A stretch of DNA of 24,263 nucleotides from IMG/VR virus record IMGVR_UViG_3300028802_000055, positions 1-24,263 of that record; one strand, given 5' to 3'. Below are positions 307 through 22,374 of the stretch, in pieces. The notes beneath the pieces were generated by a model, which searched no databases, was not told the DNA's origin, and worked only from the letters and a program-made list of their open reading frames with translations. Within the stretch, counting starts at the first letter, position 1. The number at the start of each line of letters is the position of its first letter. The stretch is from a virus. Made by a program: the position numbers and the translations under genes.

Positions 307-2793
307 ATGAGACTGCGGGTAGCTGGTGTTGTCACAATCGGAGCCGTGCTGACGCTGGCCCCAGCGTTGGCCTTGGGCGGGGACGCTGTCTCCGGTTGGT
401 ACACGGGGGGTGAGTACACATCGACCACACAGCCTGCGACGACGCAACCGGCGACGACGACGCCGACCACTGTCCCCACGACCCCGGCGACGACGGCCAC
501 GACCACGCCCAGGGAAGTGACGACGACGACGCACCCGCCGTACACGACGACGACGCACCCTGCGACGACGACGACGACCGCTACGACCACACCCCGCGAG
601 GTCACCACTACGACGGCCGCGTCTACCACTACGTCCTCTACAGCGACTTCTACTTCGACTACCTCCGTGGCGACCTCTACGAGTACGTCACCTTCGACCT
701 CGACAACTACGACCCAGCCGGGAACGACCACCACAACGGCGGGCGGAACTACCACAACCACCCTGCCGAGTCACAAAGTCTTCGTGTGCAAGTTCGTGGG
801 GACGCCGGGAGTGGATGAACGGCTCCAGACCGGCCAGAACCCGATCTCGGTGGACATCCACTCGATCCTCGACCCCGAGAATGACGGCATCCACATCGGT
901 GACTTCTTCACCGACGCCCAGGGCCGCTCGCTGATCATCGCCTTCGACATCGGCCAGGACGAGCCGTCGATCCTCGACTGCGTGTTCCCGGTGCCGACGA
1001 CCACGACCACGACGAGCACTACCGTTCCGTCATCTTCCACGACAACGACGACGGTTGCACCCACTACTACGGCGACGGGTGCGACGACGACCACGGCCGC
1101 TCCACCGCCGCCGACGTTCACCACGACGACGACAAGCACTGTCCCGGCCACTACGTCAACCGCGCCGGGTACGACCACGTCCACTTCTTCCACGACGACG
1201 ACCGCTGCCCCGACAACGACTGAGGCACCCAAGAAGGTCTGGGTCTGCAAGTACGTCAACATCCCCAACTCCAACGAGTTGCTCCAGGTAGTGATCAGTG
1301 TCTCGGTCAACGCCATCCCGGATCCCGAGAACGACGGCGTCCACGTCGGGGACGAGTTCGCTGACGAGCACGGCCTGTCCAAGGTGATCGCCTTCGACAC
1401 CGGCCAGCCCAAGCCCGACGTGAGTGAGTGCCTGCCCGATGGGGGTACGACGACGACATATCCCAGCAGCACCACCACGACGCAGCCTGGTACCAGCACC
1501 ACTACAACGTCGCCTACGACCTCTACGACCACGGGTTCGTCCACCACGACCACCACGGCATCCTCTACGACGAGCACGACCGCCCCATCTACGACCACGA
1601 CAACCACCGGATCGTCTACGACGACCACGTTGCCGAGGCCGAGCCTGTTCGGGGTGAATGTGTTCGCCTTCTGCGACGAGGCGACCAACACCCCGCAAAT
1701 CTCGATCACCTTCGGGAACCGCCTCGACCTCGACGGCCAGACCGGCACCCTGTCGTTCAGTAGCGGGGGGTCAGTTCCCCTGGTCTTCCAGACCAGCAGC
1801 GTGGTGGTCATCCCCTACCCGGACACCGACGAGAACATCACGCTGACCTACACGCTGGCCGGTGAGACGGCTTCGGCCTCGGTGACCAAGCCGCCGAACT
1901 GCCCGCCGTCTACGACGACCACCACCGGGGTAACGACGACGTCATCGACATCCTCGACTACCGCGCCCAGCACGACGACCTCCACCACGTCGCCTACAAG
2001 CACGTCTACGTCCACCACGACGGTGGCCCCGACGACGAGCACCTCAACGAGCACTACCCTGCCCCAAGGGACCACGACGACGGGGGTGACGACATCGACC
2101 AGCACCACGTCCACTACGACCCCGCCGACTTCGACTTCGACAACGACGACTCAGCCGTCCACGACCTCCTCCAGCACGACTCTGCCGGGGACGACGACCA
2201 CATCTACGGTCCCGACAACGTCGTCTACCGCCGTGACCACTACGACCGCATCGTCCACGACGAGCACAACGGCGCCAGGCACGACTACGACGACCAGCAC
2301 CCCTACGAGCACGACTTCAACGACGCTCCCTGAGACGTTCACCTTCGGGGCGGCGGGCACGATCTGTGTGGCCGAGGTGCCGACCATCCGCATCGAGTTC
2401 CAGAACCAGTTCCCGAGCCTCGCCGGGGTGACCGGAACCCTGACCATGACCGACATCAACGGTCGTGTGATCAGCACCCAGTCGCTCGTCTACCAGCCCG
2501 GTCAGACGGTGGACATCCTGTACCCAGGTACGGAAGTGAACCCTGACGGGTCGATCGCTGACGTGCCGGGATGGAACCTCAACCCGGCCGGGTTCTGGGT
2601 GCCCGACAACTCGGACGCTTTCCTCCGAGAGGGCATCTTCCTCACCTACGAGGTCAACCCCACGGCTGGCCCGGTGCTGGTCACCTACCCGCCCGAGTCG
2701 TCAGCCTGCGCCAACCCTGACGGGCCGTTCCCGCCCGGTATCGGCCCGGACAACGTGTCCAGGGGACCAGCGCTTCTCCCAGCCACCGAGTAG
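307..2793 (+). CDS. Secreted Thr-rich mucin-like multidomain surface protein (moron-like)
   Basis: The 828-residue protein begins with a Sec signal peptide: R2/R4, a hydrophobic core to about residue 23, and likely cleavage near ALA-LGG. It has no lipobox Cys. Four globular modules are joined by Thr/Ser/Pro linkers (about residues 39-155, 231-308, 379-446 and 535-676). Modules A1 (156-230) and A2 (309-378) share a pattern with V-C-K near the start, DPENDG in the middle and a second Cys near the end. Modules B1 (447-534) and B2 (677-828) share a Cys, then TP-I-I-F, then GxTGTL, and look like beta-sandwich units. No LPxTG motif or C-terminal membrane anchor is visible, so it should be released or held non-covalently. 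The linkers would suit O-mannosylation. A terminator lies on each side and the gene has its own -10 box. The likely role is modification of the lysogen surface or adhesion; a virion adhesin is less likely given the signal peptide. Function is inferred. Confidence 0.8.
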   Translation: MRLRVAGVVTIGAVLTLAPALALGGDAVSGWYTGGEYTSTTQPATTQPATTTPTTVPTTPATTATTTPREVTTTTHPPYTTTTHPATTTTTATTTPREVTTTTAASTTTSSTATSTSTTSVATSTSTSPSTSTTTTQPGTTTTTAGGTTTTTLPSHKVFVCKFVGTPGVDERLQTGQNPISVDIHSILDPENDGIHIGDFFTDAQGRSLIIAFDIGQDEPSILDCVFPVPTTTTTTSTTVPSSSTTTTTVAPTTTATGATTTTAAPPPPTFTTTTTSTVPATTSTAPGTTTSTSSTTTTAAPTTTEAPKKVWVCKYVNIPNSNELLQVVISVSVNAIPDPENDGVHVGDEFADEHGLSKVIAFDTGQPKPDVSECLPDGGTTTTYPSSTTTTQPGTSTTTTSPTTSTTTGSSTTTTTASSTTSTTAPSTTTTTTGSSTTTTLPRPSLFGVNVFAFCDEATNTPQISITFGNRLDLDGQTGTLSFSSGGSVPLVFQTSSVVVIPYPDTDENITLTYTLAGETASASVTKPPNCPPSTTTTTGVTTTSSTSSTTAPSTTTSTTSPTSTSTSTTTVAPTTSTSTSTTLPQGTTTTGVTTSTSTTSTTTPPTSTSTTTTQPSTTSSSTTLPGTTTTSTVPTTSSTAVTTTTASSTTSTTAPGTTTTTSTPTSTTSTTLPETFTFGAAGTICVAEVPTIRIEFQNQFPSLAGVTGTLTMTDINGRVISTQSLVYQPGQTVDILYPGTEVNPDGSIADVPGWNLNPAGFWVPDNSDAFLREGIFLTYEVNPTAGPVLVTYPPESSACANPDGPFPPGIGPDNVSRGPALLPATE
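421..2334 (+). repeat. Low-complexity Thr-codon tracts in four linkers
   Basis: Runs of ACG/ACC/ACT codons, with few ACA, fill about 421-771, 997-1230, 1441-1644 and 1909-2334. They encode the Thr-rich linkers. Because the repeat is ACN, the other plus frames read mostly NAC or CNA codons and contain almost no stops, which creates long shadow reading frames on both strands. The tracts are likely to vary in length between related phages. Confidence 0.85.
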
Positions 2794-3601: not shown

Positions 3602-4069
3602 ATGCCCTGGCAAGGCCCGCATGACCGTGAGGAGATGCTGAGCACTCGGCAGTTCGAAGTGGTGCGCGCTGTCTACGGGACGCAGAACCCCGAAGCGCTG
3701 TTCAAGGGTCGAGCGTGGACCGGAGCGCCCTGGCCGGGTGCGGGCAAGATGAAGGACCAGTCGCACTTCAACCGCGAGTTGATCCACCACGCTCTCTCCC
3801 AGCCCCCCGAGCTAGAGGACGTCGATCCCCGGCCTCTGCGGGCCACCCAGCCCAACATCATCCGCGAGCACGTCAACTACTACATGGGCAAGAACTACGA
3901 GCACACCGGGCGCACGAGCGCTGACCCCCACAACGTGGGCAACATGTTCCCGACGATCTACGTGCGCCCCAACGACCGCTGGGACATCCTCTCGGGCCAC
4001 CACCGCGCCACCGCCTCCCTGCTGAAGGGCGAAGCGCTGCGCGCTCGTGTGATCCGTCAGCCTCAGTAG
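3602..4069 (+). CDS. ParB/sulfiredoxin-fold-like protein
   Basis: This 155-residue protein's C-terminal 40 residues carry PTIYVRPNDRW followed by DILSGHHRATASLLKG (D128, G132, H133, H134, R135). That matches the core GxHR-type motif of ParB N-terminal-like domains, which bind or hydrolyse nucleotides or cut DNA. The N-terminal two thirds are not recognised. They include several His/Tyr residues (REHVNYYMGKNYEHTG) that could form another part of the same fold. No HTH DNA-binding domain is seen, so it is not a full partition ParB. Similar small ParB-like proteins are common in actinophages. It is the first gene of the plus-strand accessory cluster and is closed by the hairpin at 4071-4095. Confidence 0.6.
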   Translation: MPWQGPHDREEMLSTRQFEVVRAVYGTQNPEALFKGRAWTGAPWPGAGKMKDQSHFNRELIHHALSQPPELEDVDPRPLRATQPNIIREHVNYYMGKNYEHTGRTSADPHNVGNMFPTIYVRPNDRWDILSGHHRATASLLKGEALRARVIRQPQ

Positions 4070-7398: not shown

Positions 7399-7692
7399 AT
7401 GACCGAACCAGAACAGCTTCAACTCGACCTCGACTACGGACCCCCTCCTGACCACTTCACCATCGAGGTGCGCAGTGGCCTTCAGTACAACGAGGAGGTA
7501 GTGCGCACGATGGAGGCCGCAACCCCTGAGGAGGCCGTCCTCGCCATCGAGTCTCTGCGCGAGACCTACGCCCAGCGCAGCCACGTGAAGTGGGAGGGCG
7601 AGGAGGTCAACGCCTACGGCAGTCTCCTCGGCATGGACGACAAGCGCGTGACGTGGCAGATCCACGTCAACCCCCCGCTGCCCATCTCATGA
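7399..7692 (+). CDS. Hypothetical protein
   Basis: The 97-residue protein begins MTEPEQLQLDLDYGPPPDHF. This is followed by a beta-helix-beta-like region (FTIEVRSGLQYNEEVVRTME; helix TPEEAVLAIESLRETYAQRS) and a beta C-terminus ending RVTWQIHVNPPLPIS. Glu/Asp-rich and soluble, with no motif recognised. Its TGA overlaps the next ATG as ATGA, so both are probably made together. Confidence 0.65.
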   Translation: MTEPEQLQLDLDYGPPPDHFTIEVRSGLQYNEEVVRTMEAATPEEAVLAIESLRETYAQRSHVKWEGEEVNAYGSLLGMDDKRVTWQIHVNPPLPIS

Positions 7693-8066: not shown

Positions 8067-9650
8067 GTGACGATCACTGATCTCGGCTATGGGCCTGACC
8101 CTGAAGAACTCCTTGAAGAGGACGAGGAGCAGCGCTCCGCCGAGGAGGACGAGGAGTTCATCGAACCTCTCGACCCGGAGATGGCCAACTTCGTTGACCA
8201 GTTGATCAAGCGCACCATCATGTTCTGCGAGGAACTGGCCGGGTTCGAAATGTTCCCCTACCAGCGCTCGCTGTCATACCGCATCATCGAGAGCCTGATC
8301 CTGTCGGACGCTGAGGAGGTCACCGGCCTGATGGCCCGCCAGTCGGGCAAGTCAGAGGTCGTGGCCACCACCCTGTCGGGTTGCATGGTGCTCTTCCCCA
8401 AGCTGGCCAAGAGCTATCCGATCCTGGAGAAGTTCAAGCGCGGCTTGTGGGTCGGCATCTTCGCTCCCGTCGATGAGCAGGCCGACCTCGTCTTCAGCCG
8501 CATCGTCTCCCGGCTCACCAGCGACCACGCCGTGGAGATCATGCTCGACCCCGAGATCGATGACCGCGTGGACGGCAAGTCGAAGGTGGTGCGCCTCTCA
8601 TCTGGCTCGTTCTGTCGCCGCCAGACGGCCAACCCCCGAGCCAAGATCGAGGGCGCCTCGTATCACATCATCATCGTGGACGAGGCCCAGGAGGCCGACG
8701 ACACAGTGGTGCGCAAGTCGATCCACCCGATGCTCGCCTTCTACGCCGGGACCATCGTCAAGATCGGCACCACCGGCTACACCAAGGGCGACTTCTACAA
8801 GGCCATCAACATCAACAAGCGGCGCCAGGTCAACAAGCGCGCCCGCCAGAACCATTTCGAGTACGACTACCGCACCGTCTGCAAGTACAACCCGAGCTAC
8901 GCCAAGTTCATCGCCAAGGAGAAGATCCGCCTCGGTGAGGACTCGGAGGAGTTCCAGATGTCCTATGCGTTGAAGTGGATGCTGGAGCGTGGCATGCTCG
9001 TCACGGAGGACGAGCTTGACTACCTCGCTGATCCCAGCATGCAACTCGTTCGGGGCTGGCACCGTTCACCTTGTGTGGTCGGTATCGATCCGGCGCGTGT
9101 CAAGGACAGCACGGTCGTCACCGTGTGCTGGGTGGACTGGGACTTCCCTGACCCCGCTGGGTACCGGGAGCACCGCATCCTCAACTGGCTGGAGATCAAC
9201 AACACCGAGTGGGAGAGTCAGTACTTCCAGATCATGGACTTCCTCGACCCCTACGACATCATGTCGATCGGGGTCGATGCCCAGGGGATGGGATCAGCCG
9301 TAGCCGAGCGGATGCAGCGCCTGATGGGGAGCCGCTGTGAGGTCATCCCCTACTCCTCTGACAGCAAGAACCAGTCCGAGCGCTGGAAGCACCTCATCCA
9401 GTTGATACAGCGCCAGATGCTGGTCTACCCCGGCCACAGCAAGGCCCGACGTACCCGTGTATGGCGTCGCTTCCGCCAGCAGATGGTTGATGCCGAGAAG
9501 GTGATGCGGGGTCAGTACCTGCTGATCGAGGCTCCTGACGAGAAGGAAGCCCACGATGACTATGTCGATTCGGCTGCCCTCGCCTGTGCCTGCTCGATGA
9601 TGGAGACCGTGCCCATGGTTGAGGAGGTCTCCTCTCCGTTCTACCGATGA
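8067..9650 (+). CDS. Terminase large subunit
   Basis: This 527-residue motor protein packages DNA into the prohead and cuts it. The ATPase domain has Walker A MARQSGKSE (residues 89-97), Walker B IIIVDEAQE (D205, E206) and coupling motif GTTG (234-237). The nuclease domain has the expected three acidic clusters: GIDPARVKDST (D341), GVDAQGMG (D404) and DDYVDSAA (D497-D501). The N-terminal 35 residues are very acidic (EELLEEDEEQ), which is unusual. Length fits the family. The GTG start was chosen from the -10 box 7 bases upstream. No small subunit is recognised next to it. The genes that follow are not the portal but a long insertion. Confidence 0.93.
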   Translation: MTITDLGYGPDPEELLEEDEEQRSAEEDEEFIEPLDPEMANFVDQLIKRTIMFCEELAGFEMFPYQRSLSYRIIESLILSDAEEVTGLMARQSGKSEVVATTLSGCMVLFPKLAKSYPILEKFKRGLWVGIFAPVDEQADLVFSRIVSRLTSDHAVEIMLDPEIDDRVDGKSKVVRLSSGSFCRRQTANPRAKIEGASYHIIIVDEAQEADDTVVRKSIHPMLAFYAGTIVKIGTTGYTKGDFYKAININKRRQVNKRARQNHFEYDYRTVCKYNPSYAKFIAKEKIRLGEDSEEFQMSYALKWMLERGMLVTEDELDYLADPSMQLVRGWHRSPCVVGIDPARVKDSTVVTVCWVDWDFPDPAGYREHRILNWLEINNTEWESQYFQIMDFLDPYDIMSIGVDAQGMGSAVAERMQRLMGSRCEVIPYSSDSKNQSERWKHLIQLIQRQMLVYPGHSKARRTRVWRRFRQQMVDAEKVMRGQYLLIEAPDEKEAHDDYVDSAALACACSMMETVPMVEEVSSPFYR

Positions 9651-9687
9651 GTTAGGCTCGCCCTGATACCCAGGTAAGGAGGGTCGC

Positions 9688-10053
9688 ATGTCGTATCCGC
9701 CCCAGGAAGTCCAGTTCGAACGGGACGTCGCCTTCAACGGCACCCGGCGTGGTCCTCTTCGTTTCGAAGAGGGAGTTGCCACCGACACGGACATCCCCAA
9801 CGACTTCGGTCGCGGTGCCTACGGTGACACGGGCGGCGACGCTCGCGGGCGCCCCTTCACCGCCATCAAGGATCCGATGGAGACGATGTCCGAGCGCGCT
9901 CACGTCGGCTCGGCCACGTGGATCGAGGCGCCGACCATGCTCAGCGACTTCGTCATCGGCGCCAGCGTCGGTCAGGGACCGCCTCAGTTCGAAATGGAGC
10001 TTGGCTCCGAGCGTCGGCTGATCCGGCTCAACCCGGCGATGGTCAGCGACTGA
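9688..10053 (+). CDS. Hypothetical protein downstream of terminase
   Basis: The start at ATG 9688 has an excellent SD (AAGGAGG, 5-base spacing); a TAGGCT -10-like box lies at 9653-9658. The 121-residue protein is rich in Gly/Asp/Arg in its centre (DFGRGAYGDTGGDARGRPF), with little predicted hydrophobic core until the C-terminus (FEMELGSERRLIRLNPAM). This suggests an extended or virion-associated protein. No family is recognised. It opens the gene block between terminase and portal. Confidence 0.7.
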   Translation: MSYPPQEVQFERDVAFNGTRRGPLRFEEGVATDTDIPNDFGRGAYGDTGGDARGRPFTAIKDPMETMSERAHVGSATWIEAPTMLSDFVIGASVGQGPPQFEMELGSERRLIRLNPAMVSD

Positions 10054-10063
10054 ACACACGGCC

Positions 10064-10393
10064 ATGGCCGATGACCTCAGTCAGCGGCACCTTGGGACGC
10101 TCCACGAGATCCACCACAAGGGCAAGCTGCCTCGCCAGAAGAGCGAGGTGGCGGCGCTCGTCCAGCGAGGGTTGGTCGAACCTGCGGGCGCCCGAGGTCA
10201 GTTCGGCATGACGTACTACCAGTTGACCCAGGCTGGGTCGAACGTTGCTCGGAACGTCAATCTCTCCGGGGGGAAGTACGAGCATGTGCCGGGGTCCGCT
10301 CCTGCGCCTGTGACACCGGCAGCAACCGACGAGGTGCCTGAGGGGTACATGCGGATGAAGAACGGCAAGATCCTGAAGATTGCGAGGGGATGA
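10064..10393 (+). CDS. Winged-helix-like protein
   Basis: Residues 8-65 of 109 (LGTLHEIHHKGKLPRQKSEV, LVQRGLVE, TYYQLTQAGSNVA) have the layout of a winged helix-turn-helix: helix, turn, recognition-like helix, then a two-strand wing ending in a T-x-x-G helix. The C-terminus is a Pro/Ala linker and a basic end (MRMKNGKILKIARG). It could regulate late genes or be a small DNA-binding packaging factor, since no small terminase is evident, but the position after the large subunit argues for caution. No clear SD precedes the ATG. Confidence 0.55.
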   Translation: MADDLSQRHLGTLHEIHHKGKLPRQKSEVAALVQRGLVEPAGARGQFGMTYYQLTQAGSNVARNVNLSGGKYEHVPGSAPAPVTPAATDEVPEGYMRMKNGKILKIARG

Positions 10394-10394
10394 G

Positions 10395-10835
10395 ATGGCC
10401 CTCAGGGCGGTGCCGTATCTGTCGGTCGGGTTCGGCACCCGACCACAGAAGCTGCGCACGGCGCCAGACAAGCCCTACAAGCCGCCCAAGCCGCTGGTGC
10501 CCACTGCACCGACGCCGAGGGTCACCGTTGCTCCGCAGCCGAACGCCCCGGCGTCCCGGAGCAAGGAGATCCCGCTCGGCAGGGCTGGCCCTGGGCGTCC
10601 TCCCACCAACCTCGGCCAGTACCTGATCAAGCCCATCGATGACCAGAACACCGGTTTCGAGATGCTCAACACCGAGCCGTCGATGATCACCAAGGTCAAC
10701 CAGGACTACATGCGCAAGGGCCAGCTTCCTCTCGCCCTCCAGCCGAAGTACCTCCGCAAGCCCGCTGTGATGGAGAAGGGGCGCGCCGCTGCCATCTCCA
10801 AGGGCTGGCACAAGCCGAGGAGCCACCAGGGATGA
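10395..10835 (+). CDS. Pro/Lys-rich hypothetical protein
   Basis: The ATG at 10395 is chosen because GAGGGG lies just upstream; the frame opens at 10380. The 146-residue protein is Pro- and Lys-rich and probably unstructured for residues 20-75 (DKPYKPPKPLVPTAPTPR). A short conserved-looking part follows (TNLGQYLIKPIDDQN; YMRKGQLPLALQPKYLRKP), with a basic tail. Its TGA overlaps the next start (ATGA). A virion-internal or DNA-contacting role is possible but unproven. Confidence 0.65.
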   Translation: MALRAVPYLSVGFGTRPQKLRTAPDKPYKPPKPLVPTAPTPRVTVAPQPNAPASRSKEIPLGRAGPGRPPTNLGQYLIKPIDDQNTGFEMLNTEPSMITKVNQDYMRKGQLPLALQPKYLRKPAVMEKGRAAAISKGWHKPRSHQG

Positions 10836-11449
10836 CGCACGTGACCGCTCGATGGGTGAGCAAGGACCAGTTCCGCCACCTCGCCACCGAGGCCAACACC
10901 ATCGCCCCCGGCGAGACCGAGGCGGGGTTCACTGTGTCAGCGCGCCAGTCCCCCGAGGGCGAGCTTGTTCGTGCTGCCGACCGGTACACGGTCGGGGGCG
11001 TACCAGGGCAGGTCGGCACGTCCACCGACACCCCGGTTGGTGGCCGGGATCTCGCCTCGTTCACCCGCAAGAACCGGGCGCTGCTCTCCCAGCCCGAGCA
11101 CTACATCGGCGCCTGGCACGAGGGTGATCGTCAGCCCAAGGCTCAGGTCGATCTTGATGTATCCCAGGGCTTCCCTCGCACCGAGGCCGGGGGCGTCGAG
11201 GCGCGTCATGCGACGTTGACTCGCAACGAGCGGGCCTTCGGTGAGGTGGACGAGAAGGCTGACTACGCCGGGACGCACACCAATCCGTTCTCGACCCGCC
11301 CGCTCGGTGACGAGGGAGGGGTCAAGGCAGCCATCGCCTCGCTGAGTACGAACCCAGCGGCCTACGAGGCGGTCGTCTCGGGCAACGTGTTGTCGGGGAT
11401 GTCCACCTGGGTCAACGGGCGCCCTGTGGCGAAGTCGAAGAGGGCGTGA
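10832..11449 (+). CDS. Hypothetical protein in terminase-portal block
   Basis: The 205-residue protein is coupled by ATGA to the gene before it. Sequence hallmarks are MTHVTARWVSKDQFRHLATE at the start, LSQPEHYIGAWHEGD in the middle (Trp/His-rich), DLDVSQGFP, and a C-terminal AAIASLSTNPAAYEAVVSG. The PEHYIGAWHEG...VDLDVSQGF pattern resembles a beta-rich enzyme-like core, but I cannot name a family. The last 88 bases overlap a minus-strand zinc-binding gene tail to tail. Confidence 0.65.
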   Translation: MTHVTARWVSKDQFRHLATEANTIAPGETEAGFTVSARQSPEGELVRAADRYTVGGVPGQVGTSTDTPVGGRDLASFTRKNRALLSQPEHYIGAWHEGDRQPKAQVDLDVSQGFPRTEAGGVEARHATLTRNERAFGEVDEKADYAGTHTNPFSTRPLGDEGGVKAAIASLSTNPAAYEAVVSGNVLSGMSTWVNGRPVAKSKRA

Positions 11450-11595
11450 TCCGGCTTGGGCAGCATCTTGTGTTCGTCGCACGAGGAGAAGCCAGCGCGG
11501 GCGACGCACGTGCTGCGCGCCCCGCAGACCTCGCACCACTTCGGGGTCGCCCAGGCACGCAGCTTGCGCTCGGTGTCGCTCATCGGTTCGGTCAT
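11362..11595 (-). CDS. Small minus-strand Cys4 zinc-binding protein
   Basis: The 77-residue protein has four Cys in a zinc-ribbon-like layout: C21, C24 (WCEVCG), C30 and C39 (SSCDEH, with H42 as another possible ligand). The ATG at 11595 is supported by TACACT 7 bases upstream on the minus strand, with no SD. An alternative start is ATG 11583. It lies antisense inside the virion gene block and overlaps the 3' end of the 10832-11449 gene by 88 bases. It may be a small regulator or an inserted moron; function unknown. Confidence 0.6.
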   Translation of the reverse strand: MTEPMSDTERKLRAWATPKWCEVCGARSTCVARAGFSSCDEHKMLPKPDHALFDFATGRPLTQVDIPDNTLPETTAS

Positions 11596-11608
11596 GCACG
11601 GGAGTGTA
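11596..11608 (-). promoter_or_regulatory. Leaderless-type -10 box TACACT (minus strand)
   Basis: On the minus strand TACACT (11608-11603) is followed by 7 bases and the ATG at 11595, without SD. It lies in the short divergent gap before the 11628 gene. Confidence 0.45.
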
Positions 11609-11611
11609 GCA

Positions 11612-11627
11612 AAGGGAACGGTTCCTT
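11612..11627. promoter_or_regulatory. Quasi-palindrome in divergent gap
   Basis: AAGGGAACGGTTCCTT is nearly self-complementary (core GGAAC-G-GTTCC, 11615-11625). It ends directly at the ATG at 11628 and lies just upstream of the minus-strand TACACT box. It could be an operator acting on both genes or a translation-blocking hairpin. Confidence 0.35.
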
Positions 11628-12977
11628 ATGCCTAGGGCTACGAAGAGGGTTGACCCTGGCACACCGCTGACCAATCCAACGGGAGCGGCTGTTGTTGCCA
11701 CCGCCGAGGCGGGGCGCTCCGGTGAGGGCTTCTACCAAGGTCTCGTCGGGCGCAAGACCGGGCGCGCTGCACCTCGGCCCCAGGGTCACGGGCGCTCCAC
11801 TGCCGTGCCTCGTCACGAGGCCATCCTCGCCGCCCATGGCTTGATGGACCAGGGCGCCGCCGACCCTCGCCAGGGCCAGTTGTTCGCCCCCCACGAGCTT
11901 CCACCGCTCATCTCCCCGGCGACGTTGGCCAAGAAGCACAACGCCCCCCCGCCCCTGCCTGCCTCACGCCCTGGCTTCATGCCCGAGTTGTACGAGAAGG
12001 AAGGTGGCGGCACCGTCTCCACGAAGCAGGCCCACAAGCGCATGGTGGCGGGCATCCAGCGACTGGGAGCGTACGTGGACGTGGACCCGGACTCGGGCCT
12101 CGGCGCTGTGGGCACAGCGATGTCGAACCGGGCCGCTACGGCGGCGCTGCACCCCGAGCCTGCGCCGTGGTACGCCAAGGTCACCCGGCGCTCCACCCCG
12201 GCCGAGAACCCCAACCAAGGCGTGCTCGATCTCGATGCCGGTAGCGCCACCACGATGATCGAGAGTGCGGCGCACGGTGAGGGCGTGAGCTACGGCGAGA
12301 TGTCCAGGGCCACGGCGATCACCAGCCCGCGCACCCGTTGGACCAAGGGAACCCTCGGGACCGACGACTACTCCACGCCCAACCTGACGTCGGCACGCAA
12401 CGTCGTCCACGACGTGAAGCAGGCCAAGGCGGTGTCCGAGGAACTTGACCTGCCGGTGGACTACCACGAGATCGGCCGTCACGCCACCAGCGGTGGCGCC
12501 CTCCAGGAGCACATGGGCAAGGCGGGCGTCGAGTTCGCCACGGGTGACCCCAGTCGGGCCATCCCGATCGGTGAGTTGCAGAGCACGAAGGTGCCCAACT
12601 TCAACCAGAGCCTGCTGCTCGCCCACCCCTCCCAGGCGATCCGGCGTCAGTCGGCGCTGTCGTACACCGTGGACACCCACGACGTGTCGTCGCTGGGCGC
12701 TCACCCCGACATGTTGAAGACGATGGGCGGCATGGCCATCGCTCGCATGACCGGGCGGCGCTCCGCTCTGCGTGGTGGTGAGCTTCCACCGGCCTACCAG
12801 TCGAGGGTGTGGGAGGGCCAGAAGTCCAAGGAGCCAGAGCCGCTGGGTGAGCACTCGCTGCTGGAGACGACGCGCTCGGGCAAGATCCGCCCCAACCCCA
12901 CGCAGCTACCGGGTCACATCTCGCACCAGTTCGATGATCGCAGCCCCATTGCCAAGCGCCTGGGTCTGGAGTTCTGA
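11628..12977 (+). CDS. DUF7178-like protein, possible virion-associated enzyme
   Basis: The 449-residue protein has a Pro/Gly/Ala-rich N-terminus (about 1-120), then a domain (about 130-410). This domain contains GVSYGEMSRATAITSPRTRW (the ITSPRTRW motif starts at I231), NLTSARNVV, a lysine-containing KVPNFNQSLL (N324) and TVDTHDVSSLG (D349, H351, D352). The order S-P-x-x-R-W, N-x-x-x-A, K-V-x-x-F, then V/I-D-x-H resembles the DUF7178 family I recall from actinophages, whose biochemical role is unknown. The conserved acidic/His/Arg residues suggest an enzyme. No SD is clear, and the start abuts a quasi-palindrome. The TGA overlaps the next ATG by one base (TGATG). Confidence 0.6.
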   Translation: MPRATKRVDPGTPLTNPTGAAVVATAEAGRSGEGFYQGLVGRKTGRAAPRPQGHGRSTAVPRHEAILAAHGLMDQGAADPRQGQLFAPHELPPLISPATLAKKHNAPPPLPASRPGFMPELYEKEGGGTVSTKQAHKRMVAGIQRLGAYVDVDPDSGLGAVGTAMSNRAATAALHPEPAPWYAKVTRRSTPAENPNQGVLDLDAGSATTMIESAAHGEGVSYGEMSRATAITSPRTRWTKGTLGTDDYSTPNLTSARNVVHDVKQAKAVSEELDLPVDYHEIGRHATSGGALQEHMGKAGVEFATGDPSRAIPIGELQSTKVPNFNQSLLLAHPSQAIRRQSALSYTVDTHDVSSLGAHPDMLKTMGGMAIARMTGRRSALRGGELPPAYQSRVWEGQKSKEPEPLGEHSLLETTRSGKIRPNPTQLPGHISHQFDDRSPIAKRLGLEF

Positions 12978-13738
12978 TGGCTCGCCAGAGGCGTCTCCCA
13001 GGAGTGGACTGGCACAAGGGCGACATCCGTCGTGAGGAGTCGCTGGCCAAGGGGGCCAAGGAGTACGCCCGCGGTCAGGGTCTGCCCTACCGCCCTGGCA
13101 ACGTCGCTGCGGTGCGCGCCGACCCCAACGTGCTCCACGCCGTGGGTGGGATCGTGGCCAAGCAGCAGGGCGCCCCTCCGCACATGTCCGACCAGATGAA
13201 GGCGTCGTACGCCGCTCTGCACGAGGGCATCAACCGCCAGTACGAGCACCTCACCAAGCCGACCTCCGAGGGTGGCCTCGGCATCAAGCATGAGGTGACA
13301 GCCGAGGATCCCTACAAGGACATCGGGGAGGCGATGGCCGACGTGCGTAGCAATCGCCGGTTGCGCACGTTGGCCACCGCTACCACGGAGTCGGGTCAGG
13401 GCCGCGAGGGATCACCGGCCCAGGAGAACCCGATGATGCACTCGTCCATGAACGACAAGTTCCGGGCCGTCCACGACGCCTTCGGTCACCTGGCCACCGG
13501 GCGCGACTTCGGGCGCCACGGTGAGGCGGCTTCCTTCCAGCACCACGCAGCGATGTTCCCCGAGGCCGCTCATCCAGCGCTGGCGAGCGAGCTACGAGCG
13601 CAGAACTCGGCGCTGATCCGCATGGGCAACTTCCCCGAGAACAAGCCTTACGAGATCCCAGATTGGGCAACTAAGCCTGTGGCCAAGATGCCGACGCCCA
13701 AGCGGCGCAAGGCCGCACCCCACCCGACGCTGTTCTAA
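12977..13738 (+). CDS. VHDxFGH-motif protein of unknown function
   Basis: The 253-residue protein is coupled by TGATG to the DUF7178-like gene. Residues 159-211 carry a striking set of conserved-looking residues: NDKFRAVHDAFGH (H166, D167, H171), GRDFGRHGE (H181, E183), HH (189-190) and ELRAQNS (E205, Q209, N210). I recall similar N-x-x-F-R-A-V-H-D-x-F-G-H and ETRGQNS patterns in large phage polyvalent or internal proteins, where the activity is not established. The His/Asp/Glu pattern suggests a metal site. The N-terminal half is basic and helical and the C-terminus is a Lys/Pro tail (MPTPKRRKAAPHPTLF). Confidence 0.6.
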   Translation: MARQRRLPGVDWHKGDIRREESLAKGAKEYARGQGLPYRPGNVAAVRADPNVLHAVGGIVAKQQGAPPHMSDQMKASYAALHEGINRQYEHLTKPTSEGGLGIKHEVTAEDPYKDIGEAMADVRSNRRLRTLATATTESGQGREGSPAQENPMMHSSMNDKFRAVHDAFGHLATGRDFGRHGEAASFQHHAAMFPEAAHPALASELRAQNSALIRMGNFPENKPYEIPDWATKPVAKMPTPKRRKAAPHPTLF

Positions 13739-13752
13739 CCGAAGGAGCACTC

Positions 13753-13914
13753 ATGGCCGAGCAGGCGAAGCACAACAACCCCAAGGACAAGGGGAAGTTC
13801 AGCTATGGCAAGAAGGAGGCGCCGCGCAAGACGGTGACCCAGCCCAAGGACACCGCCAAGACCCGTGAGGCCAAGCGGTCCAAGGGTGGAGACCGAGAGC
13901 GGGTGACCAAGTAG
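13753..13914 (+). CDS. Small, very basic protein
   Basis: This short gene encodes 53 residues, almost all polar, with Lys/Arg dominant (HNNPKDKGKFSYGKKEAPRK; AKTREAKRSKGG). A good SD (GAAGGAG, 13741-13747) precedes ATG 13753. It probably binds nucleic acid or is unstructured. The stop overlaps the next GTG start as TAGTG, indicating coupling. Confidence 0.65.
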   Translation: MAEQAKHNNPKDKGKFSYGKKEAPRKTVTQPKDTAKTREAKRSKGGDRERVTK

Positions 13915-14162
13915 TGGCACGAGGGGAACGCTCCGAGAACCATCCCAGTCGGCGGGTTGAGCGCAGTTCCTACTCCGGGGACGCCTACGACGCCTACCGC
14001 GACTACCAGTTGACGCACGGTCCCGACATCGACCGCCCCCGGCCGGGGTGGTTCCAGCGGGCCAACGCCGAGCGCATCGCCAACGACATCGCTGGCCGCA
14101 AGACGAAGAACGCCATGTGGCCCGCCGCTCCGCAGGAGCACGGACCTGCCCGCCCTCAGTAA
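13914..14162 (+). CDS. Hypothetical small protein
   Basis: The GTG start shares a base with the previous stop (TAGTG). The 82 residues are polar, with SSYSGDAYDAYRDYQLTHG and WFQRANAERIANDIAGRKT as the only likely ordered parts. No motif is recognised. It belongs to a run of small basic proteins (13753-15118) between terminase and portal. Confidence 0.6.
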   Translation: MARGERSENHPSRRVERSSYSGDAYDAYRDYQLTHGPDIDRPRPGWFQRANAERIANDIAGRKTKNAMWPAAPQEHGPARPQ

Positions 14163-14178
14163 CACAACAAGGAGAACC

Positions 14179-14373
14179 ATGACCACCGACCCAGCCCCAC
14201 AGCAGCCCGCCGCCAGCGGCCCCGCACCGGTCAGCCCTGAGCCGACCGCCGCCGACGACCCCGCTCGTCGTGACCAGATCAAGGCGCAGGTTCAGACCGC
14301 CATGGAGAACCTGAAGGCCGAACTCGCCACTCGCCTCGATCAGTTCCTGGACGAGTTGGGCGCTCTGATCTGA
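14179..14373 (+). CDS. Small helical protein
   Basis: The 64-residue product has a Pro/Ala-rich acidic N-terminus and an amphipathic helix (RRDQIKAQVQTAMENLKAEL, then LDQFLDELGALI). An AAGGAG SD (14169-14174) lies 4 bases before the ATG. It may form a coiled-coil oligomer. The family is unknown. Confidence 0.65.
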   Translation: MTTDPAPQQPAASGPAPVSPEPTAADDPARRDQIKAQVQTAMENLKAELATRLDQFLDELGALI

Positions 14374-14374
14374 C

Positions 14375-14551
14375 GTGCCCGGAGGGAAGTCCCCAGGGCC
14401 GTCGATCAAGAAGCCCGACGAGTACGAAGCCCTGAAGAAGGAGGGCTACTCCAAGTCGAAGTCGGCTGCCATCTCCAACGAGGCGGCGAAGGGGCCAGCG
14501 GCTCGCTCACGCATGGCCAAGAAGGCGGCACGAACGAGGGCGAAGAAGTAA
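14375..14551 (+). CDS. DUF7218-like small basic protein
   Basis: The GTG at 14375 opens a 58-residue frame that begins one base after the previous stop. PSIKKPDEYEALKKEGYSKS followed by KSAAISNEAAKG matches the pattern 'K-x-P-x-x-Y-E-A-L-x-x-x-G-x-S-K-x-x-A-A-x-I-x-N' of small actinobacterial and phage DUF7218-type proteins. The C-terminus is Lys/Arg/Ala-rich (RMAKKAARTRAKK) and histone-like, so DNA contact is plausible. GGAG lies inside the gene rather than upstream, so coupling to the previous gene is likely. Confidence 0.65.
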   Translation: MPGGKSPGPSIKKPDEYEALKKEGYSKSKSAAISNEAAKGPAARSRMAKKAARTRAKK

Positions 14552-14577
14552 CCCCAACCGATACCGGAGGTATCACA

Positions 14578-14793
14578 ATGACCATGCTTGCCACCATGTA
14601 CGCCGAGATCATGGACAGCCCGGACTTTGCCGAGATCATGTTCCTGGTCGCCTTCATCCTGTTCACCATCGAGGCCGTGCGCCTCGTCGTGGGCCGGGGA
14701 GCGACGTGGGACTTCCACTGGATCCTGGTGGTGGCGGGCTTGGCCTGCGTCGCCCTCGGGCTACTGGCTCTACCGACAGGAGGCAGCGCTTGA
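14578..14793 (+). CDS. Small two-helix membrane protein
   Basis: The 71-residue protein has two predicted membrane helices (about 19-38, EIMFLVAFILFTIEAVRLVV; and about 48-66, WILVVAGLACVALGLLALP), separated by a short loop with RGATWDFH. The start at ATG 14578 has GGAGG (14566-14570) 7 bases upstream. Its stop overlaps the TTG start of the next membrane protein (TTGA). A holin-like or membrane-anchoring role is possible, but no lysis enzyme is nearby in this window. Confidence 0.65.
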   Translation: MTMLATMYAEIMDSPDFAEIMFLVAFILFTIEAVRLVVGRGATWDFHWILVVAGLACVALGLLALPTGGSA

Positions 14794-14900
14794 CCCCGGC
14801 CATGCTGGCTGCCGTTCTCGCAGACGGCATCTACATCGGCGGCGGGTTCATCCTGCTGGTGCTCGTCATCATCCTCGTCGTCATCCTGCTGCGGCGCTGA
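14790..14900 (+). CDS. 36-residue single-span membrane protein with TTG start
   Basis: The TTG at 14790 has AGGAGG (14778-14783) at 6-base spacing and overlaps the previous stop as TTGA. An internal ATG at 14802 is an alternative without SD. The product is a short N-terminus (TPAMLAAVLADGIYIGGG), one membrane helix (FILLVLVIILVVILL) and a basic end (RR). The topology would place the C-terminus inside. It is tightly coupled to the two-helix membrane protein before it, so the two may act together. Confidence 0.55.
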   Translation: MTPAMLAAVLADGIYIGGGFILLVLVIILVVILLRR

Positions 14901-15118
14901 TGGCCAGCGAATACCGAGGTGAGGTGCGGCCCCGGCGTCAGCCGTCGCGGCACCACATCTCGTTGTTCGCTGGACAGCACAAGACCGACACGGTGGACGA
15001 TCCCTTCGGGCCGCTCTCCAACAAGCAGTTCCCGGCCTTCTACCAGCGCAGCCCGATCAAGAACGCCTACCGCAAGTACATGCGCGCCAAGACCCCCTAC
15101 ATGAAGCAGCGCATGTAG
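14900..15118 (+). CDS. Small basic hypothetical protein
   Basis: ATG 14900 overlaps the previous stop by one base (TGATG). The 72-residue protein is basic and aromatic, with RPRRQPSRHHISLFAG near the start and PIKNAYRKYMRAKTPYMKQR at the end. No family is recognised. The stop shares a base with the next GTG (TAGTG). Confidence 0.6.
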   Translation: MASEYRGEVRPRRQPSRHHISLFAGQHKTDTVDDPFGPLSNKQFPAFYQRSPIKNAYRKYMRAKTPYMKQRM

Positions 15119-15435
15119 TGGCGGCGCACGAGAACCTGAGCGAGGGCCAGTTCCCGATCCTGTACCACGGCTCCCACCGCCCCGAGGACGTCGAGTCGAT
15201 CCGTAGCGAGGGTATGCGCTCGACCCCTTCCCACATCCTGTTCCCGGCGAAGTGGCCAACCCTCACCACCAGCCGGGAGCAGGCCGAGCGTTATGGCAAA
15301 CATGTGGTCGAGGTTCACCTCCCACAACAAGTCGCGCATACCCACCTATGGCCAGCGCAGCGTCATACCGCCTATGGTCATGACGCCCAGGCCTACGCTG
15401 TGCGTAAGCCGATCCCTCGGGAGCACATCAGATGA
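15118..15435 (+). CDS. Small ADP-ribosyltransferase-like protein
   Basis: This 105-residue protein matches the order of motifs in small ADP-ribosyltransferase-fold proteins. It has ILYHGS (Y16, H17, G18) followed by the helix VESIRSEGMR; then TLTTSREQAERYG (T50, S52, Y59) and a strand VVEVHLP. It ends AYAVRKPIPREHIR, like the 'PIPPE-x-I' ending of such domains. H17 and Y59 would be the NAD-binding residues of an H-Y-x type enzyme. The third catalytic residue is unclear (Q91 or E102). The GTG start is coupled to the gene before it (TAGTG), and its stop overlaps the portal start (ATGA). It may modify host proteins or a virion component; no activity is proven. Confidence 0.55.
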   Translation: MAAHENLSEGQFPILYHGSHRPEDVESIRSEGMRSTPSHILFPAKWPTLTTSREQAERYGKHVVEVHLPQQVAHTHLWPAQRHTAYGHDAQAYAVRKPIPREHIR

Positions 15436-17090
15436 CCGTCGCCTTCCACTCACCCAGCTACCGGGCGGCAGCATCTGACCTCACCATCGCCATCAGTCCC
15501 CTGGGCCTGGTCGAGCTTGCCGACGAGGAGTTCGAAGTCCACGGACCACGGCTCAACCGCTACGCCAACAACTGGGCCTGGTACCTCGGCCACCACTGGG
15601 CGTACAAGCGGGAGATCGGTGAACCTCAACTGACCTTCAACTGGGTCCGGGCGTTCATTGACTTCCTCGTGAACTTCAGCTTTGGCAAGGGCATCAACTT
15701 CCACTCCCCCGAGGCCACGGGCGCCATCACCCCGTACCTCCTGAAGGAGGTGTGGGAGAACCACAACGACAAGCAGCCGATCCTCATGGAGATCGGTCAG
15801 CTTGGCTCCGTCTCCGGTGACGTCTTCGTCAAGGTCGCCTACGAGCCGCCCTACGTGGACACAGCAGGGGTACCGCACGAGGGCCGGATTCGGATACTCC
15901 CTCTGAATCCGGCCTTCGCCTTCCCCGAGTGGCACCCCCACGACCGCACGCGGATGATCCGCTTCAAGACGAAGTACAAGTTCTGGGCGACGGCCCAGGA
16001 CGGCTCTCGTCAGGTCATGACCTATGTGGAACTCATGACCGAGGACACGATCGAGGAGTACATCAACGACGAGTTGATCGACTCCCGCCCCAATCAGCTT
16101 GGCGAGATCCCGGTGGCCTTCTGCCCCAACTTCTCGGTCTCCTCCAGCCCCTGGGGTCTCGGTGACGCCAACGACATCATCAGCCTCAACCGCGAGTACA
16201 ACGAGAAGGCCACCGAACTCTCAGACATCATCAACTACCACGTCGCTCCGGTCACTGTCATAACAGGCGCCAAGGCGAGCAACCTGGAGAAGGGCGCTCG
16301 CAAGGTCTGGGCCATCGGCTCCAAGGACGCCAAGGTCCAGAACCTGGAGTTGCAGACCAACTTCACCGGCCCCCTCGGCTACATGGAGTTGCTGAAGCAG
16401 TCGATGCACGAGTTCATGGGCGTCCCCGCCGCGGCCCTCGGTCAGATGCAGCCCATCTCCAACACCAGCGGCGTGGCCCTCGCCATCCAGTACCAGCCGC
16501 TGATGCTGAAGCACGACCGCAAGAAGATCCAGTACATCCCGCTCTTCCAGCACATCAACGAGCTTGTCATCAAGCACGCCTTCCTGTTCGCCCCCGAGAT
16601 GACGGTCTACAACCCGCGCCTGTCGGCCACGATCGTCAAGCCCGACCAGGTGCCGCAGTTGGACCCGCTGGATCCGGTGTCATACCGCACGTATGTGGAC
16701 TGGCCGTCGCCTATGCCGATGGACACCCTCATCAAGATCAACGAGATCCAGGCCAAGATGGCGATGTCGTTGGAGAGCCGCCGCGGTGCGCTGCGCGACC
16801 TCGGGGTCCAGTTCCCCGATCAGAAGATCCGCGAAATCTTCGAAGAGGTGCTGGAGGACACGAAGGAGCAGGGTGCCCTCGACCTCATCCGTAGCCAGAT
16901 CGCGGCCTTCACGATGATGAGCACGGGCATGACGCCTGACGGTCAGCCGATGATGACTGCCGATGCGATGGGCAACCCGGTCCCGGCTACGCCTCCGGTT
17001 GACCCAGCGCTCGCTCAGGAGATGATGGCGCTCGCCTACGGAATGATGCCGCCTCAGATGGTGGACTACGAGAGCGATGACAGTCGATGA
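15432..17090 (+). CDS. Portal protein
   Basis: The 552-residue protein forms the dodecameric DNA channel at the head vertex. Length and pattern fit the SPP1 gp6-like portal family. It has an N-terminal Trp-rich segment (NRYANNWAWYLGHHWAYK), FNWVRAFIDFLVNFSFGKGI, a beta-rich wing, SPWGLGDANDIISLNREYNE (the typical D-x-x-x-L-x-x-x-Y stem helix), PAAALGQMQPISNTSGVALA and a long C-terminal helix (LRDLGVQFPDQKIREIFEEV). The Met-rich C-terminus is extended. It precedes scaffold and capsid in the usual head order, but lies 5.8 kb from the terminase. Confidence 0.88.
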   Translation: MTVAFHSPSYRAAASDLTIAISPLGLVELADEEFEVHGPRLNRYANNWAWYLGHHWAYKREIGEPQLTFNWVRAFIDFLVNFSFGKGINFHSPEATGAITPYLLKEVWENHNDKQPILMEIGQLGSVSGDVFVKVAYEPPYVDTAGVPHEGRIRILPLNPAFAFPEWHPHDRTRMIRFKTKYKFWATAQDGSRQVMTYVELMTEDTIEEYINDELIDSRPNQLGEIPVAFCPNFSVSSSPWGLGDANDIISLNREYNEKATELSDIINYHVAPVTVITGAKASNLEKGARKVWAIGSKDAKVQNLELQTNFTGPLGYMELLKQSMHEFMGVPAAALGQMQPISNTSGVALAIQYQPLMLKHDRKKIQYIPLFQHINELVIKHAFLFAPEMTVYNPRLSATIVKPDQVPQLDPLDPVSYRTYVDWPSPMPMDTLIKINEIQAKMAMSLESRRGALRDLGVQFPDQKIREIFEEVLEDTKEQGALDLIRSQIAAFTMMSTGMTPDGQPMMTADAMGNPVPATPPVDPALAQEMMALAYGMMPPQMVDYESDDSR

Positions 17091-20799: not shown

Positions 20800-22374
20800 G
20801 TGGCACGGCCCTCGGTGCAGCACAGCGGGTTTCTGATCCCGAACGCCCAGGACGTGTCCAACTCGGTCCTGGCTGAACCTGACAAGATCGACTTCAACAC
20901 CGTTGCCAACGCCCGCTGGGGCGTTGTCAGCGGCTGTGCCCTGGGGGAGCAGGGACCGCTCGCGCTCACTGTCGGTACCGGCGTAGCCGTCGTCAATGGG
21001 GCCATGGTGCCGGTGCGTGGCGGCACCGTCACCCTGACCCAGCCCACCACTGGCTCGCGCTTCATCAACGTCGTCGTGGACTCGGGCGGCGTCGTGCGCA
21101 CCATCGACGGGGAAGCGGCCACCGACCCGGTGTTCCCCGACGTGCCCGCCGACAACACGCTGTTGGCGACGATCCACGCCACGTCGAACGCCGTCAGCCT
21201 CCAGGACTTCGTCGTTGACAAGCGCAAGTTCCTGACCCCGGCGCTGTTCGCCAACCTCCCGGCGACCAGCACCCTCATCGTCAACTACAACAGCCCCAAC
21301 CCGGCTCTGGGCGACCCCAGCCAGTGGTTCCACGTCAACGGCCTGGGCGACATCTTGTGGTCGCAGGACACGATGCTGAGGCGCACCGACGTCGGGACGC
21401 TGTTGATCAGCAACAACCTTCACATCGGCAACGACCTCACCGTCCACGGTGACGAGCAAGTGCTCGGAGCGTTCCACTCCGAGGGGGTGCTCTCGGGGCG
21501 CAACCTGCGGCGCGCCAACGCCGCTCCCACCAGCCCGATCCTCGGTGACCTGTGGCAGAACACCACGACGGGCACGCTCAGCATCGCCCTGCCCGACCCG
21601 GTGACCCACGTCATCGACTGGGAGCCGCTGGCGACCGGTGACACGGCGATGCCGGTGGGCACGATCATCGACTCCGTCGAGGAGAAGACGATCATGGAGG
21701 GCAAGGGCTGGGTGGCCCTCGACGGTCGGGTGGTGACCGAGACCAAGTACCCCAACCTGTTCGGCCTCGTCGCCATGCAGCCGTGGATCTCGGGCGGCAC
21801 GGCACCGACCCGGCAGATGACGCTGCCCAACCTGGAGCGGCGCTTCCGCATCACCGACTCCAACGACACGGCGAAGTACGGCGGCGCCAACTCCAAGACG
21901 ATCACCCGCCAGAACCTCCCCAAGCACGACCACAACGTCAGTGTGGACACCCACGGCGACATCCAGCCCACCGCCCAGTTGTCGGGCATGAGCGGCGCCC
22001 ACGGCCACGACATCATCGGGGACGGCAAGCACGATCACGACGTGTACGACAAGGGCCATACCCACGACAAGAACTTCATCGTCGTCAACGATTCAGGCGG
22101 CTCGATGCTCGACGGTCTGATCAACGACCGCTCGCACACCTGGCAGGTGGACGTGGCTGCCACGACGGCGACCGGCTACGCCAACATCGTGGCCAAGCCA
22201 GCGGCCATCGGTGGCCTCTCCATCCCAGCCAACGGAGGTCTCCACAACCACACCGTGCAGGTGTCGAGGATCACCGGCCTGACCCACACCGTGCGTGAGG
22301 AACTGGTGGGCGAGAACGCCCCCTTCGACGTCACCCCGGCCTACTTCACCGTCCGCACCTACATCCGAACCTAA
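20800..22374 (+). CDS. Tail fibre/collar protein with His-x-His metal-binding array
   Basis: The 524-residue protein starts at GTG 20800 with AAGGAG upstream. N-terminal residues 1-150 are a beta-rich attachment region (IDFNTVANARWGVVSGCALG; TLLATIHATSNAVSLQDFVV). From residue 284 a phage tail collar domain appears (MPVGTIIDSVEE; GWVALDGRVV; YPNLFGLV; MTLPNLERRFRI). Five His-x-His motifs follow at 376/378, 401/403, 411/413, 420/422 and 482/484, like the metal-binding HxH repeats of T4 gp12 and gp37 fibres. The role is host-surface recognition by a trimeric fibre. It is unusual that it sits so close to the head genes. Confidence 0.82.
   Translation: MARPSVQHSGFLIPNAQDVSNSVLAEPDKIDFNTVANARWGVVSGCALGEQGPLALTVGTGVAVVNGAMVPVRGGTVTLTQPTTGSRFINVVVDSGGVVRTIDGEAATDPVFPDVPADNTLLATIHATSNAVSLQDFVVDKRKFLTPALFANLPATSTLIVNYNSPNPALGDPSQWFHVNGLGDILWSQDTMLRRTDVGTLLISNNLHIGNDLTVHGDEQVLGAFHSEGVLSGRNLRRANAAPTSPILGDLWQNTTTGTLSIALPDPVTHVIDWEPLATGDTAMPVGTIIDSVEEKTIMEGKGWVALDGRVVTETKYPNLFGLVAMQPWISGGTAPTRQMTLPNLERRFRITDSNDTAKYGGANSKTITRQNLPKHDHNVSVDTHGDIQPTAQLSGMSGAHGHDIIGDGKHDHDVYDKGHTHDKNFIVVNDSGGSMLDGLINDRSHTWQVDVAATTATGYANIVAKPAAIGGLSIPANGGLHNHTVQVSRITGLTHTVREELVGENAPFDVTPAYFTVRTYIRT

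Follow-up and report, generated by a model that had tools for sequence, protein, structure and literature searches.

The region between the terminase and portal genes

The window, i.e., the whole stretch of 24,263 nucleotides of the IMG/VR virus record IMGVR_UViG_3300028802_000055, carries a large gene block between the genes of the terminase large subunit (TerL) and the portal protein. TerL (8067-9650, + strand; phrog_2, 6.7e-23; Pfam Terminase_6C) and portal (15432-17090, + strand; SPP1_portal, 9.8e-25; phrog_64, 1.1e-38) are separated by 5,781 bp, and portal is followed downstream by scaffold and the major capsid protein (MCP). Within this gap a codon-usage gene finder placed 14 tightly packed + strand genes, designated B1 to B14, and a 15th gene (11362-11595) is located on the minus strand. 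The block had been noticed in a first-pass annotation made from the letters alone, which counted about 15 intervening genes but missed the antisense one; its size, its borders and the ATGA (10832 and 15432), TGATG (12975 and 14898) and TAGTG (13912 and 15116) overlaps at the gene junctions are all found in the sequence. As will be argued below, the block is probably a fast-turnover accessory cargo island at a fixed site of the late gene cluster, and its cargo most likely consists of virion-delivered effectors.

Most of the island genes are small. B2 (10064-10393; 109 amino acids, aa) was originally regarded as a winged helix-turn-helix (wHTH)-like protein and possibly is one, but its match to EarA (E=0.0078) is weak and stays under the cut-off, and B2 has no relatives among the compared loci. 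B4 (10832-11449; 205 aa) has relatives within the gap of several loci, and the antisense gene, which overlaps the 3' end of B4 and starts 33 bp from B5, is conserved adjoining them. This gene encodes a zinc-ribbon protein of 77 aa, the C-x2-C...C-x2-H pattern of which is kept in seven relatives, mostly next to a B4-like gene. B7 (13753-13914; 53 aa, basic, net charge +10) and B9 (14179-14373; 64 aa, acidic and helical-looking) each have relatives in four loci, all of them in the gap. The same position holds for B10 (14375-14551; 58 aa, basic; eight loci), which belongs to DUF7218 (PF23855, 4.2e-14; 52.9 bits vs. a curated cut-off of 27), and for the basic B13 (14900-15118; 72 aa; ten loci). 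Together with B3, which is described below, the basic proteins B7, B10 and B13 have net charges of +10 to +16. From hydropathy, B11 (14578-14793; 71 aa) has two predicted transmembrane segments and B12 (14790-14900; 36 aa, with a TTG start and an ATG at 14802) has one. Thus, the DUF7218-like gene, the two membrane proteins and the several basic proteins of the first-pass annotation are recovered. The ART-like assignment of B14 (15118-15435; 105 aa), the last gene before portal, is not, as no ART profile came above threshold; B14 matches phrog_6170 (E=0.003, function unknown) and DRAT (E=0.12), and has no PDB sequence match. A PADLOC search gave no match.

Phage group and variability of the gap

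The window phage is a member of a large group related to the BRock-type Streptomyces myophages. These are its nearest named relatives (BRock/Borockvirus, LuckySocke, Alone3, GiJojo, and pSt2308), matching the window at 56-58% in portal, 47-48% in TerL and about 44% in B1, and they have the same order of homologous TerL, B1, portal, scaffold and MCP genes, with several additional genes in the TerL-portal interval. However, their gap measures 1.8-3.1 kb and harbors other small genes, and the VHD, DUF7178-like, DUF7218 and HPxRxV genes of the window are unmatched there. BRock-type phages have annotated sheath genes and therefore contractile tails. Moreover, tail-sheath matches are present in 12 of 16 related IMG/VR records, eight of the 12 being over the family cut-off, so that the comparison with siphophages, from which the block had originally been judged unusual, is probably misplaced. 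The window itself has no recognisable gene for a tail tube or sheath. The sole match in a metagenome-assembled genome is one 3.2-kb contig labelled Proteobacteria (78% in portal), which is possibly a phage contamination.

The distance between TerL and portal was surveyed in 80 viral contigs and Streptomyces phages, sorted into three classes by rising relatedness to the window. The median is 912 bp in the compact distant relatives (n=37; mostly 0.6-1.0 kb), 2,645 bp in the intermediate relatives (n=8) and 4,869 bp in the clade of the window itself (n=15; range 2.2-6.8 kb), and 93 further loci gave the same gradient with medians of 850, 2,314 and 4,284 bp. Since the portal-scaffold and scaffold-MCP junctions stay short, with medians under 100 bp, the growth is concentrated at the TerL-portal junction, although the distance from MCP to the next shared gene grows too (median 750 bp in the closest class). 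In one close relative 1.6 kb are inserted between portal and scaffold (L006:11657-13285), a junction of under 110 bp in most other loci. In the window, a junction that varies across the group is found in expanded form, and its gap is not a private oddity of one phage. The first-pass annotation had named as a possible refutation that the block is a normal part of this phage group; this holds for the gene-filled gap, which is normal and graded within the group, although its content is variable.

With respect to this content, only B1, plus B3 in the closer relatives, is constant in the gap. B1 (9688-10053; 121 aa) is present in 64 loci including the BRock group and is the sole gene between TerL and portal kept across the whole group; its AlphaFold2 model is poor (predicted local distance difference test, pLDDT, 50) and of no use. 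B3 (10395-10835; 146 aa, basic, net charge +16) is kept in the closer relatives (19 loci, always in the gap), whereas the remaining B genes occur in one to ten loci each. In the compared families all relatives of the B genes are located within the same TerL-portal gap. The gap of the compact relatives consists of B1 and one lysine-rich protein. In the closer relatives, B1 and B3 are followed usually by a protein of 300-520 aa, then by changing small genes and the last gene before portal; the 300-520-aa slot after B3 is occupied by several mutually remote families, and insertions are found on both sides of B1. For B11, genome G003 has a 97% identical relative well away from the TerL-portal junction (L302:6491-6694) and genome G002 has a 68% one elsewhere (L289:17890-18084), and thus this membrane gene moves between places.

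This pattern bears directly on the idea that the block is a head-assembly or head-completion module with proteins needed for the capsid or connector, which was one of the two roles originally offered. The place between TerL and portal, the several basic proteins and the invariance of B1 in position and sequence class would all be in accordance with such a module. However, the compact relatives build a head with only B1 and one lysine-rich protein in the gap, and nearly all other genes are absent from most relatives, which largely refutes an assembly role of B2 and B4-B14. Because almost all genes, with the exception of B1 and, among closer relatives, B3, are dispensable across the group, the assembly module is unsupported and must be regarded as very unlikely; B1 alone may be structural.

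B5, B6 and the relation to polyvalent proteins

The second of the two roles, packaged effectors, is in contrast plausible due to stand-alone domains of the polyvalent type and in particular to the likeness of the B5-B6 pair to a phage protein annotated as structural. B6 (12977-13738; 253 aa) contains the exact motif VHDAFGH, as predicted, and belongs to the VHDxFGH (VHD) family phrog_3170 (1.7e-28, residues 23-223), with 39% to gp205 of Rhodococcus phage E3. In an alignment of 27 members the residues H166, D167, H171, E183 and H190 are invariant. For B6, AlphaFold2 gave a good model (pLDDT 88), apart from a flexible, low-confidence C-terminal tail that ends with HPTLF. A search of its fold in the PDB gave nothing significant (best Foldseek E 0.5; best VIA Z 2.5), and hence no catalytic activity is assigned to B6. 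The model matches BFVD entries named head-morphogenesis, large-polyvalent and ART-PolyVal proteins, and in L275 the VHD domain occurs inside a polyvalent protein, beside LPD38. The neighboring B5 (11628-12977; 449 aa) is the slot protein of the window and carries a QGQLF(AP) stretch, the QGQLF of which is conserved in the family alignment. Its designation as DUF7178-like stands only through a chain of profiles: the B5 group is linked to the family G04 (86%) and this to G00 (56%), which includes PF23802 matches, while B5 itself has no direct Pfam match and stays under the curated cut-off of DUF7178 (PF23802). The slot proteins of about 450 aa in several relatives are DUF7178 proteins (PF23802 in L008 and L006). 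No B5 relative was found in the INPHARED phages, and no paper was found on DUF7178.

In phage E3, gp205, which is annotated as “structural protein”, consists of a VHD domain fused to DUF7178, and in Mycobacterium phage Alice the two occur as neighboring genes, gp98 (DUF7178) and gp99 (VHD), situated between the major head and head decoration genes. From these sequence relationships, B5 and B6 appear to be the split form of E3 gp205. E3 has the unit as a fusion, and Bixzunavirus has it, like the window, as two adjacent genes. The Bixzunavirus pair lies among head genes, but is placed after the major head gene; in neither phage is the unit seen between TerL and portal, and both are without a QxxLF-type tail.

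Further types of cargo were recognised in the islands of other relatives by eye and by weak profile matches, namely ParB-like, ART-like, zincin-like, GNAT-like, HNH-like and peptidoglycan-binding proteins, of which only the peptidoglycan-binding match is over its cut-off. A 155-aa protein with a ParB-like “LSGHHRATASLL” stretch is also encoded in the window, but upstream of TerL (3602-4069, + strand; no profile above threshold), and a gene of this kind occurs inside the island of relatives.

According to a published proposal (PMC5512222), the polyvalent proteins of portal-terminase phages are packaged in the head and then injected. The island has domain types in common with them (VHD with LPD38, in head-morphogenesis or ART-PolyVal proteins), and its virion-gene context, with TerL, portal, scaffold and MCP as neighbors, is theirs as well. 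In our reading of the block as a cargo island, the layout would be TerL - B1 - (B3) - variable cargo - portal - scaffold - MCP, with B1 as core gene and the rest as exchangeable cargo that is co-directional with the head genes. This cargo would comprise tiny basic and membrane proteins as well as stand-alone versions of domains that are fused elsewhere into virion-packaged polyvalent proteins (VHDxFGH and DUF7178-like; in relatives also ParB-like, ART-like, zincin-like and GNAT-like). It would be made late, enter the head, travel with the DNA into the next host and act there against host functions; we infer this late expression, packaging, injection and effector activity.

Several points weigh against this reading. 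Polyvalent proteins have at least two disparate domains per polypeptide, whereas the window has separate small genes with at most one recognised domain each, a fusion of the polyvalent type being found only in relatives such as E3 gp205. The “structural” label of E3 gp205 is a record annotation, and the links of B5 to DUF7178 and of B14 to ART are weak. Not all cargo is tied to this place, as the B11 relatives in two related genomes demonstrate, and the neighborhood of portal is by itself no demonstration of packaging. The same genes could also be morons for host takeover, with products that are made during infection and never packaged, and with the TerL-portal junction being a tolerated insertion point. 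High turnover and many small genes would be expected for morons, and the membrane genes, the antisense zinc-ribbon gene and the endolysin-like and HNH-like genes in the island of relatives fit with this idea as well. However, the fused homolog of B5 and B6 in phage E3 is annotated as structural protein, and the short motifs common to unrelated cargo, which are described in the following, suggest a common destination; we thus consider morons a rather unlikely explanation of the block.

Short motifs shared by unrelated cargo

All three-residue patterns in the island protein families were scanned in an unbiased way against the upstream and downstream proteins. The top patterns in the island were P.R.V/HP.R.V and Q..LF, and nothing comparable was obtained upstream or downstream. 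HPxRxV belongs to an N-terminal leader, MA[RS]G...HPxRxV, of small proteins whose tails are not otherwise linked; an island often encodes two or three of them. After masking of the leader, 28 gap components that have it in common were unlinked (27 observed among the representatives vs. 0.2 expected), although the masked tails are short and a single fast-diverging family is therefore possible. A first test with held-out loci, in which none of 37 new families carried the motif, was uninformative because proteins sharing the motif had become linked to old ones through the motif itself; with the motif masked, four carriers were observed vs. 0.02 expected. As judged from its N-terminus (MARGERSENHPSRRV...), B8 (13914-14162; 82 aa) can be assigned as the window's copy of the HPxRxV leader protein. 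The leader had no tblastn match in the INPHARED phages.

The second pattern, QxxLF, resembles a known consensus. Bacterial proteins bind the sliding clamp via QL[S/D]LF, more generally QxxLF (PMC12309361), and clamp-binding motifs occur in five-residue QLxLF and six-residue QLxLxL forms, often C-terminally (PMC4564189, PMC3716654). Strings of this type had been spotted by eye before the scan, which is therefore a check on the choice of the pattern and not a blind discovery. QxxLF is present in 15 of 87 island families (family-weighted 8.8 vs. 0.87 expected), whereas control patterns (N, E, K or R in the first position, shifted spacing, or Q..LL) were near chance, and so was QxxLF in the structural proteins (0.70 vs. 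0.73 expected). Across four genomes of 100-118 kb, whose counts are not fully independent because the genomes are related, patterns like the clamp motif occur in 10 of 49 island genes (0.39 expected) vs. 16 of 552 other genes (12.5 expected). The support from held-out novel families with the motif masked is modest, with 2 vs. 0.27 expected in the island and 4 vs. 1.78 upstream.

Both forms of the motif are carried by the tails of VHD and DUF7178-slot proteins (QLSLF, QLRLF, QESLF, QLSLGI, QLGLGL). In the window B5 has QGQLF, which is conserved among those B5 relatives that reach the region, whereas the tail of B6 has only the off-consensus HPTLF, with H in place of the Q of the consensus; relatives of B6 have QLSLF, QLRLF or QLELF. 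Two further candidates in the window, HISLF of B13 and QLQLDL of the upstream gene 7399-7692, were rejected as they are not conserved within the B13 family and in relatives, respectively. The island tails are like clamp-binding motifs in pattern, in the frequent C-terminal place on a flexible tail and in the five- and six-residue forms, but they differ from known clamp binders in that they are found on phage cargo rather than on polymerases and often have G as second residue. A search of 13 related records, some of which are fragments, detected neither a phage-encoded clamp nor PolC/DnaE as a possible target or partner (PolA is present in 10), which leaves the host clamp DnaN as candidate partner.

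From the motif patterns we propose that some of the cargo docks on host DnaN. In a broader form, which we put forward only tentatively, the island would encode exchangeable virion-delivered effectors addressed by tags, the HPxRxV leader and the QxxLF/QLxLxL tail. The tail would dock DUF7178, VHD, ParB-like and ART-like effectors on DnaN and thereby place them at the replication fork, where they would compete with the host polymerases; the enrichment of the motif is confined to the island, the motif matches the published consensus and no clamp gene was found in the 13 records, while we infer the clamp binding, delivery and effect. Alternatively, QxxLF might be a virion-targeting tag read by the capsid, scaffold or portal protein. 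Such a tag could account for the concentration of the motif in genes adjoining portal and for its chance level in structural and remaining genes, but it is the published clamp-binding consensus that came out of the unbiased scan. Moreover, five-residue (QLSLF) and six-residue (QLSLGI, QLGLGL) forms replace each other in homologous tails, a behavior of clamp-binding motifs, and such tails are retained by VHD genes located outside the gap; a virion tag is rather unlikely, although a real alternative to clamp binding. An example of the latter is the VHD gene L233:1822-2679 of an intermediate relative, which lies outside the TerL-portal island and ends with EQMQFDI, resembling the six-residue clamp motif.

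Other genes of the window

Two further genes of the window should be mentioned. The protein of 828 aa encoded at 307-2793 (+ strand) consists mostly of low-complexity stretches rich in Thr/Ser that separate repeated globular segments, and the retrieved loci contain no relative of it. At 20800-22374 (+ strand), soon after the major capsid gene and inside the head gene cluster, there is a gene for a tail-collar/fibre-like protein.

Implications

Four elements are new: the dynamics of the island, the VHD/DUF7178 unit in its split form, the family of proteins with the HPxRxV leader, and the signal of the clamp motif. In addition, the reading of the gap as an oddity of a single phage is corrected. 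If the cargo is packaged, the island would be a naturally occurring collection of phage effectors that has a fixed place in the genome and can easily be mined in a large number of genomes. Should the QxxLF tails be clamp binders, one phage group would direct numerous unrelated, delivered proteins to a single host machine by a shared peptide, and this peptide would be a simple handle to predict phage proteins that act at the replication fork.

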